NCBI RefSeq assembly: GCF_036785885.1
Contig: NC_092317.1
Coordinates: forward strand, 2,296,501 to 2,360,500
Length of the DNA stretch: 64,000 bases
Direction of reading: 5' to 3'
Origin: Coffea arabica
Taxonomy: Eukaryota; Streptophyta; Magnoliopsida; Gentianales; Rubiaceae
The translations under genes and the position numbers were made by a program. The notes beneath the pieces are model-generated. The model was not told the DNA's origin. It made no database searches and worked only from the letters and a program-made list of their open reading frames with translations. Position 1 is the first letter of the stretch. The number at the start of each line of letters is the position of its first letter. Below are positions 7,814 through 14,285 of this stretch, one piece after another.

Positions 7814-10800
7814 TCATGCAAGCTCAAAGTACTCGCAGTTGTTCTGTAGGGTACCTCGTGCGGTACTACTTGCACACTTGACCCGCCAAACTTTAAGGAC
7901 TCCATCCAAACTTCCAGTGCAGATGGTACAACCATCATCAACCTCCTCATTGCCAGTCCCACAAGCAGCAACAAATGCTGCAACGCACCTGATCGGTCCT
8001 CTATGACCCAAAAGGACTGCCAAACATTTATGCTGACCCTCTGGATCCCTAACCCATACCCGGCAGCTGGAGTCAGCCGACCCGCTAACCACATAACTGG
8101 CCGCGGTGGCCAAGCACATTACCGCGTGAGTATGGCCTTGGAGGGGGCCCCCATATTGCAACTGCCCCGAAAACCAACCTTTTAGCCAATAGTGTATGTA
8201 GCCATCGGTGCACCCGCCGTAGAGGAACCCTCCATCCGCCGTCAAGGTCAGGGTTTTTACCGGGGAATACTTTGCGGGCAGGGTGACTGTCAGGGAATGT
8301 GGGCGGTCCCCGCTGCAAAAGTTGCGCCTCCACACCCTGACCGTGGCATCGTCGGATGCGGTGTAGAGGACTCCGTCGTCAGCTACAACTATGGCATTGA
8401 TGGGCTCTCGATGGGCTTGAATTGTCTCCATGCATTTTAGATCAGATATTCTCCATACTTTTACTGTTCTATCAAGAGAAGCTGAGTAGAGGATGTCATC
8501 TGATACGTTAATTGCTAGTGATGTTATTGGTGCCGCATGTTTCATCTGTACGTTGCATGTATTGATCAATCTTTAGGGGCCAAAAAAGAGGGAAAAGAAA
8601 ACTCAAGGGTTATGCATGTATGGGTTCAATTGTGAGCGATGTTTACCCGTCCATCATGTTGCATGCGTTGGTACATCTCTAAAAGAAACAAAAAAAAAGG
8701 GGGTGGAGAAACAAACTGCCTCCAAAAATATCATGCAAGATTCTCTAATGAGATCAAAAACAGAGTTGAGGGGTTGACACCTTAAAAAAAATAAAATGTA
8801 GTTAAATAGGAAAAATATATAAATATAAAGTTGGATAATAATTATTAATATATGCACATACATGTTAAGTTAGATGTGATTTTAGATATATTAACGAGTA
8901 TATATTGAACATTCTTTTTAAAACAAAACCCTGTATATGCACAAGTTGGATACTCAGCATGCAGCACAAGTATTTAAGATGGAGGGATGGTATAAATGTT
9001 TGTAGAAAGGCCATAGTTGCATGGTAGATGAAAATTGTCTGCCATATTATGGAGCTCGCTCTCGACTTAGTTGTTTGTGCATTTAATTGCATCACCTTTA
9101 ATTTGCTGTCCAAACCCAGAAAATTGCACAATAAATGGGAACGGATGAATCTATTGAATATGTGTATGAAAGCTTTGTTATGATTTCAACAAACAACTGC
9201 TATCTAGCTGATATATTCAGAAATATTTATGATAGTTAAGCTGATATTTGGAGGGTTAGGTTAGATGGCAAAAGCCTCTTAGTTAAAATTAAAAAAAAAA
9301 AAAAAAAAATCTTGGCATTATTGCACTTGAAGACACATATTGGGCCAATGTCTACATAATTTGCTTTTATGAACAAAAGAGGCCAATTCATGGCATTGAA
9401 GGTTTATACTACTTGTATCATTCTGTGGCTTTCCCGCCACCGGAAGACCCAAATTCCCAAATTGTTTGTGAAAGATAGGGAAGACGGCGGAGACGGGTGG
9501 GCATACGGGATACTTGATTACATAATGCACATAGTATATGATTCCATTTTTAATGATAATCTAGTTATTCTCTTTCTTATTGCAGTCGTTGAAAAAAGCT
9601 TTTTAATCATTATCCAAAGAAAAAAAAAAAGCTTTTTAATGGGAACTGGAGTCCAAAACTTGACTTTAATTAGTTTCAATCCTTGAAAGGCCCTAAAACT
9701 CGATTTCCCAATGGCAGATAGTTCCTGAAACAAGTAAAAGTCAAGACTCCTCCAATCATATGTTTAGACCCCCTGCATGCTTTTTAATCTCTTGTAAACG
9801 GCAGGCCTACAGTCTACTTTTTATTAATGAATTGCACTCTCATTATTTATTTTATCATATGGTCTAATAAATGAAATTCATATGATAAAAATGACAGTGG
9901 GGGTTTGCAATTAACAAAAATTGGAGTGCGATTGACATTTTTGCTTTTTTTTTTTTGGGAAATCCTGATTAGTAAATCATACAACGTAAGAAAATTAAAC
10001 ATTCAGTTCTCTAAAATCTTGTCATATGCCCAAAAAAAAATAAAATTTTGATTTCGCATATAACAAAATTACTGCACCAAACCAGCTCGGTTCTTTAAAA
10101 TAATAGAGTTGTTTTCAGAAACTATGCTACTTATAATGGGGTTAACCTAAAGTAGTTTAGCTCCCCCCAAAAAAAATTATGTTAAAGTGGACTGCGCAAT
10201 TGTTAAAAAAAAGTGTAATGAGAGTCGAATATTAAGGATGGGTTCAGTTTTATTCTTATCCAGGTTTAGTAATTCATAATAGGAAAAGGTAGGTTTGGAA
10301 TTCATGTCCGGAGCAGTAATGGAACCTATGCTGTTTTCTGCATTGCTATTTGGAGGTCTATTTAGAAGTTTTAAAGCAACTGTTGCTATGAATCTTATAA
10401 AGAGTCGACTGAAGCACGCGATCTTTGAAGCAACCACATAATCATCACCGTATTTCCATCCACATGAGGCTTTTTTTTTTTTTTTTTTTGTTGAAAACAG
10501 AAAAAATTAGTAGTAATAAAATCGTTCTGATCCTAATTAAGGACCGGTGTCCATGCAGAACACAGTGATATTTAGCACTCACACATGGCCGACCTATTCT
10601 ACTCTCTTCAGATTAATTATGATATACAGTTGTATGCCAATTAACTACAACAATAAAAGAAAGCTTGAGTAATTATGAAGAAGAAAGATTACCATCTTAT
10701 CTTTGCCGGTGATGTAGCTGCGGACATAACCTCCGGGCTTAGGAATAGTTGCTACTCGTACATGTTTTACAGCTCCTTCCCAGGTTCGGTGCCAAACCCG

Positions 10801-11265
10801 GATTTTACAATCGGCATACGCAGCATAAACCTTATCATTCGATACTTGTAAGGAAACAACCATGTTGGCCTTGGACTTGAGCTGGCCGCATTCGGCGAAC
10901 TCGGGCAGCTTCCATATTCGAATGATACTACCCTGGGAACCGGTATACGCCAGACCATTGGACGCTGCGATGGACAAAATCTGGCCGTCCTTTTTTAGCA
11001 CCGAAGAAATGCATCTGTAGATGGTGTGGAGATCATGGTCCTGCTTGGAGGACGTGAAGGAAAGGCGAGGAGAGGAAGGTTGAGAGAGGTAAAGGCGGGG
11101 AGAGAGGGAAGTTGAACTTAAACGAGGTGGGGTTTCAGCGAAGGAGGCTTCTTTATGGGAAATACTCCTGGAGAATTTGTTGGTGGCGTCTTGAGTTCTT
11201 ATGGCTAGAGATGGAATATTTGGGGGAGAATCGGGACGGGGAGAGTCTAGTGATGCCATTTGCAT
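7814..11265 (-). CDS. JINGUBANG-like WD40-repeat protein
   Basis: Two exons: 11265-10693 (191 codons) and 8545-7814 (243 codons plus stop), joined across a 2.15-kb intron with donor ATG|GTAATC and acceptor ACAG|ATG. The 434-residue product has a Ser/Pro-rich N-terminus and seven WD-type blades ending in IIRIWK, KIRVWH, TVKVWR, TVRVWR, IHYWL, SCRVWV and VLKVWR. The length and the start of the second exon (MKHAAPITSLA) match the plant JINGUBANG family. One Arabidopsis member restrains pollen germination in wet conditions; other members are largely uncharacterised. The intron holds only AT-rich sequence and short poly-A/T runs. A second ATG two codons downstream is an alternative start. Confidence 0.88.
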
Positions 11266-11678
11266 CTCTCTTACTCTTTCTCTACTATTTCCTTTCTTGA
11301 TCTTGAATGGATGGATGGAGAGATGGTACGGGAATTATGGAGCTGGTGGAGCGTTACGGTAGTAGAACATTTAATTTATGTGCCATGCACAAATTAATGC
11401 TTCTACCAAGATTAGGCAAAGTCATCATGTCAGCAGCGTAATAATTATGGCAAAAATTCTTATTTCTTAATTCTATGGAGGTTGTGGTCTGTGTGAATGG
11501 TAGCGTGGGTAAGGAACGTAAAAGTTTTGTCACGTGAAGTTGTGATAAGCATTTTTATCTTAGTTTTAGCACAGAACGTCGTCGTGTGTCAATCTTTCAT
11601 TATCTTAGGCCGGCTTTTATTTATTTATTTATGCCCAGGATTAGAAAGCGCAATTGCTACGCATTGTGCCATTGGCAT
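11266..11678. other. Short spacer upstream of the WD40 gene
   Basis: This is the presumed promoter and 5' UTR of the minus-strand JINGUBANG-like gene. It ends at the target-site duplication of the hAT element (ATTGGCAT, 11671-11678). No other structure is seen. Confidence 0.5.
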
Positions 11679-12324
11679 TAGTGCTGTTAATAGAGCCAAG
11701 TCGAGTCGAGTATCTAAGCGCCGAGCTCGACTCGTAACAAATTCGAGTCAGGCTCGAGCTCGCTCGACCGCCCGGACGAGCCATGATATGCACTCGAACT
11801 CCGACTCGAAAAATAGAAATGTTACTCGAATTCAAGTTCGAGCTCGACTCATTTATCACAAACGAACCAAGCTCGGAAGAGCTCGAGCTCGAGCTCGAAA
11901 TATCTGTCCTAGCTCGAGGCTCGATTTTGAGGCTCAAGTTCGAGGCTCGAGGCTCGAGGCTCGATTTCGAAATATTTGTCCAGCAATCAGTTATTTCGAA
12001 GTCCTGCTCCAACATAGTTCCAATTAATAGATCCAAAAATTTGTCCAAAGTTAGGCTATCCAAAATCAACAAAAATTACTAGGATTGGCAACCAATGCCA
12101 TTCTTATTCAAGAATAGACAAACTCTAACCACATTTCATCCGAGACAACATATAAGACCATAACATCCATACAACACAAACTAATAATTAAAGACTAGGC
12201 AAGAAAACAACCATATTTACCTTAAATTTAAGCTATATGCAAAGTAAAAAAAAACTTTATTGAAAGGTCACATCTTCTTTCTAGTTTTACATTTCCTGAT
12301 TGTACAAATTTCTGAATCGTTCGT

Positions 12325-12399
12325 TCAGAAATTGGCCATCAAGACTGCCTCCCCAAGAATGTGTCTTTCGATTGCTTCCATCACCTTCTCCTTCGTCAC
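12325..12399 (-). pseudogene. Second exon-like segment in the same hAT element, origin unknown
   Basis: A 3' splice-site-like sequence (AATGTAG|GTGACG) is followed by 24 open codons (VTKEKVMEAIERH then ILGEAVLMANF) and a stop. The segment begins in phase 0, the same phase in which the aminopeptidase exon ends, so a spliced transcript could join the two. I do not recognise the parent protein. The segment is short, so the open frame could be chance. Confidence 0.35.
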
Positions 12400-12812
12400 C
12401 TACATTTATTACAGTAATAGTAGAAATCGATTAATTACACATTAATATTTCCAATGAACTCAGTAAAATAAAATAGGGGTATACACATTAATATCTGATT
12501 CTATTCAACACAGAAAACTTTAAAAAAAAAACTCAATCTTGAACCCATATATAATCAGCATAAGCAGCCCCAATACTCAGTAAACAAGAACAGGCTTAAA
12601 CTCATATGAACATAAAAATCATGTTTAACAATAATGAAAGGTAGCTAATATCAACATTGGGCAGCCAACTCTTCCAGACAATAATGCAACAAAATTGGGC
12701 TCCAGATCATTAATTATTTGATGAATTGACCTTGCTGAAACAGTGAAACTTAAATATGAAAATATTTATAACGTCTTTTGCCAAATACAGGAAATTAGCA
12801 CCAGAGATTTAC

Positions 12813-13046
12813 CTCATCAAGAGTTGTTATCAGTATACCACGAACTTTTTCCTGCACAAGGTTCTCTCTCAAATCTTTTAACTTGTCTGCAACTGAACGA
12901 CCAGAAAATTGTGGAGGATGCACAGCAACAGGATTCAGTTCAAGTGGTGAGCGGCTAATCCAAACTTCATCCACCAAGTTTCTGGGTGTCTGAATCAACT
13001 TTTGCTGTTTCTTACTAAAAGCAATGGCAGCATCTTTTGGTAAATT
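12813..13046 (-). pseudogene. Captured aminopeptidase P exon inside the hAT element
   Basis: The minus-strand frame is open for exactly 78 codons. It contains SKKQQKLIQT, NLVDEVW, NPVAVHP, GRSVADKLKDLRE and GILITTLDE in the order expected for the linker and start of the second domain of plant Xaa-Pro aminopeptidase P (APP2-like, M24 family). It keeps a 3' splice-site-like left border (ACACTAG|AAT) and a 5' splice donor (GAG|GTAAAT), both in phase 0. The catalytic M24 region is absent, so the piece cannot be an active peptidase. Genes captured by transposons are usually fragments like this one. Confidence 0.8.
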
Positions 13047-13202
13047 CTAGTGTGGCAGTTAACAAATACCAGTTAACGTGGTGAATGTTTCCAAAAAAAG
13101 TGGTTCATCAGGGATTAGGAAACTAAAGAATTGCTTCTTCTTGCGGCTTCACCGCTTCAGTAAACCCAGAAGTAAAATTACATAATTTTAAAAAAAAACT
13201 AA

Positions 13203-13555
13203 CGTGGGTAGCGGCGTGGGTTGCGAAGCCTCTGACTGTGGGTAGCGGCGGCGAAGCCTCTGGCTGTGTTTTGTTGTTGCGGCTGTGGGTAGCGGCGAAG
13301 CCTCTGGCTGTGGGTAGCGGCGGCGAAGCCTCTGGCTGTGGGGTGCGGGCCGTGCGGCTGAGAGGCAGAGACGGAGAGGGAGGTTGTGGGTAGCGGCGAC
13401 GGCAAAGCTTATGACTGTGGGGTGTGGGCCGTGCGGCTGAGAGGTAGAGACGGAGAGGGAGGTTGTGGGTAGCGGCGGCGGCGAAGCCTCTGACTGTGGG
13501 GTGTGGGCCGTGCGGCTGAGAGGCAGAGACGGAGAGAGAGGACTGTGGTCCAGTA
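13203..13555. repeat. GC-rich minisatellite inside the hAT element
   Basis: About three units of roughly 79 bp (starting near 13313, 13389 and 13468) share a core with gaagcctctg, ctgtggggtg and cggagaggga. Shorter partial units lie to the left. Because units are in register, overlapping Pro/Arg/His-rich ORFs appear on the minus strand. I regard those as a result of the repeat, not as genes. Confidence 0.85.
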
Positions 13556-13831
13556 GGGTGCGGCGGAGAAGAAGAATGAAATGAAAGCAATGGAAATATC
13601 GAACCCTAGTCCAAATTTCTGCTCTTTGACTGCTAAAATGACAAAAATGCCCTTCTTTGTCGAGCTCAATCGAACTACTTGGTTAAAAAGAGAATTCGAG
13701 CTTACTCGGCTCGATAATTAAATGAGTATATTTCTAGTTCGAGTTCAACTGAAATTAACGAGTCGAGCTCGAGCCTTATCGAGTCGAACTCTAACGAACT
13801 TTCGAGCTACTAGTTTGGCTTAACAGCTCTA

Positions 13832-14285
13832 ATTGGCATTCAAAGGTTTAAAACAAAAATGGCGCGATAATAGAAAAAGAAGAAAGAACTTCCAATCGTA
13901 ACAAACGCACGATGGCCATGTTATACCAACTTCAGAGGCACCATAAGTTAAACTTAGATTACACCATTAGCCCTGCTTAGAAGAATTTAAAGATTTGACT
14001 CCGCCTCAGATCAACCACAAACATTGGCCTGAATTTTTAATAATATGTCTCGAAAGTTGACCGCGATGCACAACTGCTTTCTTCTCCTTTTGCATTTTTG
14101 CCCGTCTACACTCCGCAATTACCTGCTAGCACAGATTCTGGTGCAGTGATAACTAAGAAATTAAGACGAGGCATCCAAGGTCTATCAGGAAATGCGCAAG
14201 GAAGTCAACTTGTTACGTCAACTAGAATCTAGGCTCTATTCTGAAAAAAGGAAAAAAAAAATACAACAAATGGCCCAAACTAGCC
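13832..14285. other. Spacer at the 3' end of the methyltransferase-like gene
   Basis: It begins with the right copy of the hAT target duplication. The remainder probably includes the 3' UTR of the minus-strand gene that ends at 14286. No ORF or repeat of note. Confidence 0.45.

Follow-up and report, generated by a model that had tools for sequence, protein, structure and literature searches.

The analysed window is a 64,000-nucleotide stretch (G000:C8:2296501-2360500) of a genome of 1.198 Gb in 131 contigs, whose genes point to a plant and whose contigs, judging from their paired matches, appear to pair as homoeologs. It holds a 2.15-kb element (Table 1) whose inverted ends, TAGTGCTGTTAA and TAGAGCTGTTAA, are identical at 11 of 12 positions and whose two flanks carry a perfect 8-bp duplication, ATTGGCAT. 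The counterpart of this site on C7 aligns with both flanks and reads GTGCC-ATTGGCAT-TCAAAGG, with a single copy of the duplication and without the element; it is the exact empty site. The ends, the duplication and the empty C7 site thus bear out the original prediction of a hAT element with clean inverted ends and a perfect duplication. Since the C7 site is empty, the C8 insertion occurred later than the separation of the C7 and C8 copies, the distances between C8 and C7 in the two flanks being 0.0252 and 0.0074.

A WD40-type gene in like orientation has its apparent start codon (at about 11265, on the minus strand) 414 bp from the element, which lies on the upstream side. The ORF pieces of this gene lie at 10645-11265 (weak propeller matches) and 7814-8572 (WD40, E=8.2e-30), and the element is absent from C7. 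Neither tRNA genes nor Rfam matches at the gathering score were found in 11400-14100. Beyond the element, some 300 bp on C8 (14850-15151) are missing from the C7 locus; inspection by eye showed no clear transposon ends there, so the difference may be a deletion on C7.

Table 1. The hAT element of the window and its component parts (positions are those of the window).
Feature	Positions	Strand	Remarks
Left target-site duplication ATTGGCAT	11671..11678	strandless	one copy at the empty C7 site
hAT element, non-autonomous, 2,153 bp	11679..13831	minus	strand of the captured exons, also of the L027 transposase
Left arm, terminal inverted repeat TAGTGCTGTTAA and GAGCTCGA-rich subterminal repeats	11679..12182	minus	common to the family
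PEBP-family gene fragment (intron end, last exon, post-stop sequence with AATAAA)	12179..12520	minus	donors C12, C11
AATAAA poly(A)-signal-like hexamer	12256..12261	minus	also in both PEBP donors
PEBP last exon, 24 codons and TGA, AG phase-0 acceptor	12325..12399	minus	encodes VTKEKVMEAIERHILGEAVLMANF
44-bp captured piece	12514..12557	strandless	donors C16 (95%), C15 (94% over 35 bp)
85-bp captured piece	12555..12639	strandless	donors C19 (92%), C20 (89%)
164-bp captured piece	12634..12797	strandless	donors C22 and C21 (92% each)
Aminopeptidase P fragment (intron end, exon, intron start)	12797..13087	minus	donors C14:8162178-8162519, C13:6366393-6366734
Aminopeptidase P exon, 78 open codons	12813..13046	minus	95-codon donor exon minus 51 bp
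Stretch of uncertain source	13089..13178	strandless	also in the sister and at C8:3302248-3302329 (87%)
GC-rich tandem repeats, units of about 79 and 28 bp	13200..13571	strandless	related sequence in other family members
Right arm, terminal inverted repeat TAGAGCTGTTAA	13577..13831	minus	
Right target-site duplication ATTGGCAT	13832..13839	strandless	

The parent aminopeptidase P (APP) gene, for which the original prediction proposed a search, is present on C14 and C13, where the donor loci match both the exon and its flanking intron sequence. A 51-bp deletion apart, the captured fragment is 98% identical to these donors over 291 aligned bases, six of which differ from C14. Our search for this fragment, in which every first-look candidate was scored, recovered it at four places: the window, a sister element on C2, C14 and C13. 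The exon matches Pfam Creatinase_N_2 (E=2.3e-9) and APP-1 in the PDB (E=3.3e-5), a protein match of the kind whose absence had been named as evidence against the assignment. In the donor, the Creatinase_N_2 profile is continuous from this exon (profile positions 2-48) to the next one (49-92). The predicted minus-strand exon of 78 codons is therefore real, with its AG acceptor and its donor site (GTAAAT), but 78 codons is not the length of the donor exon, which has 95 in both C14 and C13; 51 bp were lost in frame from the window copy, and 17 codons with them. Intron bases are retained on both sides of the exon, indicating that the capture was made from DNA.

The second exon-like piece of the original prediction does have its own acceptor, the same phase and a natural TGA stop, but it is not derived from aminopeptidase P: it is the last exon of a PEBP-family gene. 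The captured fragment is 81% identical to its donor on C12 (C12:864145-864539) and 79% to that on C11 (C11:1687782-1688186) when gaps are counted, and 93% and 92%, respectively, over aligned bases. The same kind of search, again scoring every first-look candidate, recovered it in the window, in the sister, on C12 and on C11. Alone, the 24-residue exon scores weakly (Pfam E=0.087, below the cut-off; PDB E=1.4), and the PEBP assignment is made because the DNA matches the donors and because the first exon of one of them (C12, 148 aa) matches PBP at 1.4e-29. The last exon of the C12 donor corresponds to the captured piece with two residue differences. Here too, the intron sequence within the donor match indicates a capture from DNA.

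Codon changes relative to the donors (two nonsynonymous and one synonymous in APP, two and two in PEBP) are too few for a test and give no sign of constraint. The pairwise distances for APP (window-C14 0.021, window-sister 0.042, C14-C13 0.010-0.016) and, over common sites, for PEBP (window-C12 0.070-0.074, window-sister 0.031, C12-C11 0.038) are small and not polarised, and do not give the order of capture and chromosome-pair duplication. By sequence comparison, it is only the insertion at the window site that is placed after the C7/C8 split.

Between the PEBP and APP fragments, three further donor pairs together cover 12514-12797. The shortness of these three pieces (44, 85 and 164 bp) counts against the mosaic reading proposed below. 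The C19 locus contains an ORF with a ubiquitin domain, and the 85-bp piece was copied from outside this ORF. The C22 locus contains ORFs with HMA-domain matches just under the Pfam cut-off, and the 164-bp piece lies about 2 kb away, outside the ORFs. The C16/C15 sequence lies to one side of PEBP in the window element and to the other side in the sister, so that one simple order of capture fails to explain both. A single host locus (C16, L047 3329-3428 and 3675-3718; C15, L048) corresponds to 99 bp in the sister and 44 bp in the window, and about 53 bp of the 99-bp piece are also present in relatives such as L027. Two origins would account for the likeness of this locus to the family: a capture made by the family long ago, or a hAT remnant at the locus itself. 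To the right of APP, 13132-13212, which overlaps the stretch of uncertain source, recurs in L055, a further copy of the hAT family. An 82-bp match to 13089-13178 (L053 1501-1582) is located on the same contig at a distance of about 1 Mb, and may represent a donor, a remnant or shared ancestry.

From the left arm to APP, the exact overlaps at the five joins of the window element are 4, 3, 3, 0 (with a 2-nt insert) and 1 nt, and a simple chance model gives 0.004-0.035 for their sum. The two internal joins of the sister have no overlap, one being blunt and the other containing an insert of about 10 nt, and the chance figure for the window and sister joins together is 0.02-0.13. The excess of microhomology is thus modest in the window and smaller when the sister joins are added, and the overlaps at the window joins would weakly favour templated repair with switching.

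The search for other copies, also proposed at the outset, revealed a multicopy family. The whole element gave at least 46 matches in the genome, a lower bound because 40 of the 558 first-look candidates were scored. From these, we took out 20 stretches, together with one longer stretch for the sister. Scanning for the arms recovered 17 copies including that of the window, 14 of them with both arms in view; no right arm was found for L020, L021 and L022 within the stretches taken out. When the best pair lying no more than 60 nt from the expected ends is taken, 10 of the 14 two-armed copies, the window counted, have matching ends flanked by a perfect 8-bp duplication. Two of these ten, L023 and L025, have one common duplication and look like a single insertion that was later copied. 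The duplication of L019 has one mismatch, and the scan assigned none to L015, L018 and L024. The recurrence of these ends with duplications of their own, the matches of both exons to donor genes and the empty C7 site together place the element beyond a chance arrangement.

One family member (L027; 5,085 bp, with its own duplication ATTGTGAT) contains a single ORF of 739 aa on the strand that corresponds to the minus strand of the window. This ORF matches hAT-like_RNase-H (3.5e-25) and Dimer_Tnp_hAT (5.4e-25) as well as the Hermes transposase in the PDB (1.1e-14), so on these matches L027 is a relative with the same ends that encodes a hAT transposase. Judged by L027, the left arm of the window element corresponds to the 3′ side of the transposase ORF and the right arm to its upstream side. 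Of the window element, only the two ends align with L027, both outside the transposase ORF; the element therefore has no transposase of its own. Its segments 12183-13303 and 13378-13554 do not align with any of the four long relatives (L023, L024, L026 and L027).

Other family members also carry host DNA. The 902-bp interior of L017 is common to L015, and about 725 bp of it match C4 and C3; parts of this stretch are present in L014. On C4, the stretch starts 66 bp past an aspartic-protease ORF (TAXi_N, 3.5e-28). Therefore, host DNA has been captured more than once by this family. The C4 locus downstream of the aspartic-protease ORF (L056 1186-1910, in C4:74786800-74789800) gives the matches to the L015 and L017 interiors and to parts of L014.

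The sister element on C2 (L029; 3,055 bp) has its own duplication, TTATGGTG, and carries both the PEBP and the APP captures, which shows that the captured DNA moved with the element. Its order is left end, a piece of the transposase N-terminal region, the 99-bp C15/C16 piece, PEBP (531 bp), APP (579 bp, with both exons and the intron between them), GC-rich DNA and right end. The join between APP and the right part is identical in the two elements. This join, together with the two captures, indicates that both elements most likely come from one ancestor, which would already have held both captures and from which each element later lost or gained parts. In the sister, both coding pieces are broken, by a 2-bp deletion causing a frameshift in the APP exon and by a premature TGA in the PEBP exon.

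The hAT ends, the duplication, the empty C7 site, the donors, the transposase-coding relative and the sister with both captures are direct observations, and we consider it highly probable that the window element is a non-autonomous Pack-hAT in which fragments from at least five loci (the PEBP gene, C16/C15, C19/C20, C22/C21 and the aminopeptidase P gene) stand where its relatives have the transposase gene. Such host pieces would have been copied in at the DNA level while breaks in the element were being repaired, with switching between templates, and its movement would rely on the transposase of relatives such as L027. A transcript started in the right arm would read the captured exons downstream of it in the transposase sense, and could splice the APP exon to the PEBP exon and end at the poly(A) signal carried by the element. 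Such a chimeric transcript would lack its own start codon and would most likely be non-coding baggage. The best reading is thus a mosaic Pack-hAT that is mostly baggage.

As to how the pieces were assembled, the model proposed for Pack-TYPE elements, in which neighbouring elements insert in tandem and are re-mobilised jointly (PMC8903248), could replace templated repair, since hAT structures compatible with it are described in that report. Nevertheless, the donors belong to five different contig pairs, the pieces measure 44-342 bp with overlaps of 0-4 nt, and no family arm aligns between the captured pieces, which makes this route unlikely.

Likewise unlikely is that the mosaic Pack-hAT gives rise to a non-coding chimeric transcript, or to small RNAs acting on the APP or PEBP parents. 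The identity to the donors over aligned bases (98% for APP and 93% for PEBP) and the position of the captured exons on the same strand as the L027 transposase agree with this possibility, and transcribed transduplicates have been proposed to act in regulation (PMC2528002). Nevertheless, nothing in the DNA distinguishes such an element from inert baggage. In a more speculative version, to which we give a low probability, the 5′ leader side of the transposase gene would function as a trap. Host fragments caught in it would be read in sense from a promoter belonging to the element, and the transcripts would be spliced and terminated at a poly(A) site that had itself been captured. If so, the element would be a small assembly line of non-coding chimeric RNAs acting on several parents.

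A functional chimeric APP-PEBP peptide, arising from the predicted splicing of 12813 to 12399, is very improbable. In the window copy, the two exons are open and their phases are compatible, and the splice dinucleotides and the downstream AATAAA are in place. Nevertheless, on the minus strand from 13831 to the APP acceptor, the only ATGs are at 13183 and 13108 and open ORFs of 1 and 11 codons, neither of which contains a phase-0 GT, and no AUG within the element can be joined in frame. In addition, the codon preceding the APP exon is TAG and the exon itself has no Met, so any product would need a start within a host exon further upstream. The window APP exon is also short by 17 codons, with two nonsynonymous changes against one synonymous. 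The missing in-frame AUG and the frameshift and premature stop of the sister lead us to reject the chimeric peptide, and the TAG and the lack of any sign of constraint likewise speak against this part of the original prediction; the element probably makes no working protein. Finally, the idea that the exon was left here by a resident aminopeptidase P gene, with the inverted ends around it a coincidence, can be dismissed almost entirely, as no point was found in its support, the matching C7 site is exactly empty, the donors are on C14 and C13, and the C2 sister has the same join between APP and the right part.

The capture of gene pieces by hAT elements, taken in the original prediction to be undescribed in this form, has been reported in print both as Pack-hATs and as hAT transduplication (PMC8903248; PMC2528002; PMC3260210). 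Our literature search retrieved no paper joining aminopeptidase P, a transposon, a gene fragment and a plant. Pack-TYPE elements of the hAT superfamily have been described in maize and rice, among them an element by which a maize gene has had an exon extended (PMC8903248). Like them, the window element is non-autonomous, with hAT ends, an 8-bp duplication, captured host DNA and several copies. It differs from the Pack-hATs of that report in its plant, in the five donors assigned within 2.15 kb and in having its empty site in the same genome. In grapevine, the variable parts of Hatvine-6 derive from exons, introns and non-genic DNA (PMC2528002), and the window element resembles it as a hAT element with common ends and a variable part matching the same three kinds of host DNA. 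In contrast, transposase coding sequence is reported to be common to the Hatvine-6 elements (PMC2528002); the window element has none, and its sister keeps a part.

In maize, two Ds2 and nine Ds-l4 elements with gene fragments were reported in 2011, their route of acquisition being called not known (PMC3260210). These are likewise hAT elements with filler DNA including introns and with donors on other chromosomes, although they belong to another hAT family with other ends, and one donor each is named for Ds2-22 and Ds-l4-354 (PMC3260210). The soybean element Tgm-Express1 contains fragments of five unrelated host genes that are spliced into chimeric RNAs (PMC1947982), and the window element is comparable in uniting pieces of at least five host loci. 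Nevertheless, Tgm-Express1 is a CACTA element within an intron of a transcribed gene and its chimeric splicing was shown (PMC1947982), whereas splicing of the window element is a prediction from its DNA.

Compared feature by feature, the window element has the testable characters of a Pack-hAT and differs from those described in detail (five donors, 2.15 kb) rather than in kind. It is therefore a clear example of a known phenomenon, with no new gene indicated. As such, it documents gene capture by a hAT element with unusual completeness, since paired donors, a sister, a transposase-coding relative and the exact empty site are all present in one genome. The joins of its short patchwork can be read, and can serve to test how host DNA is acquired by cut-and-paste elements.
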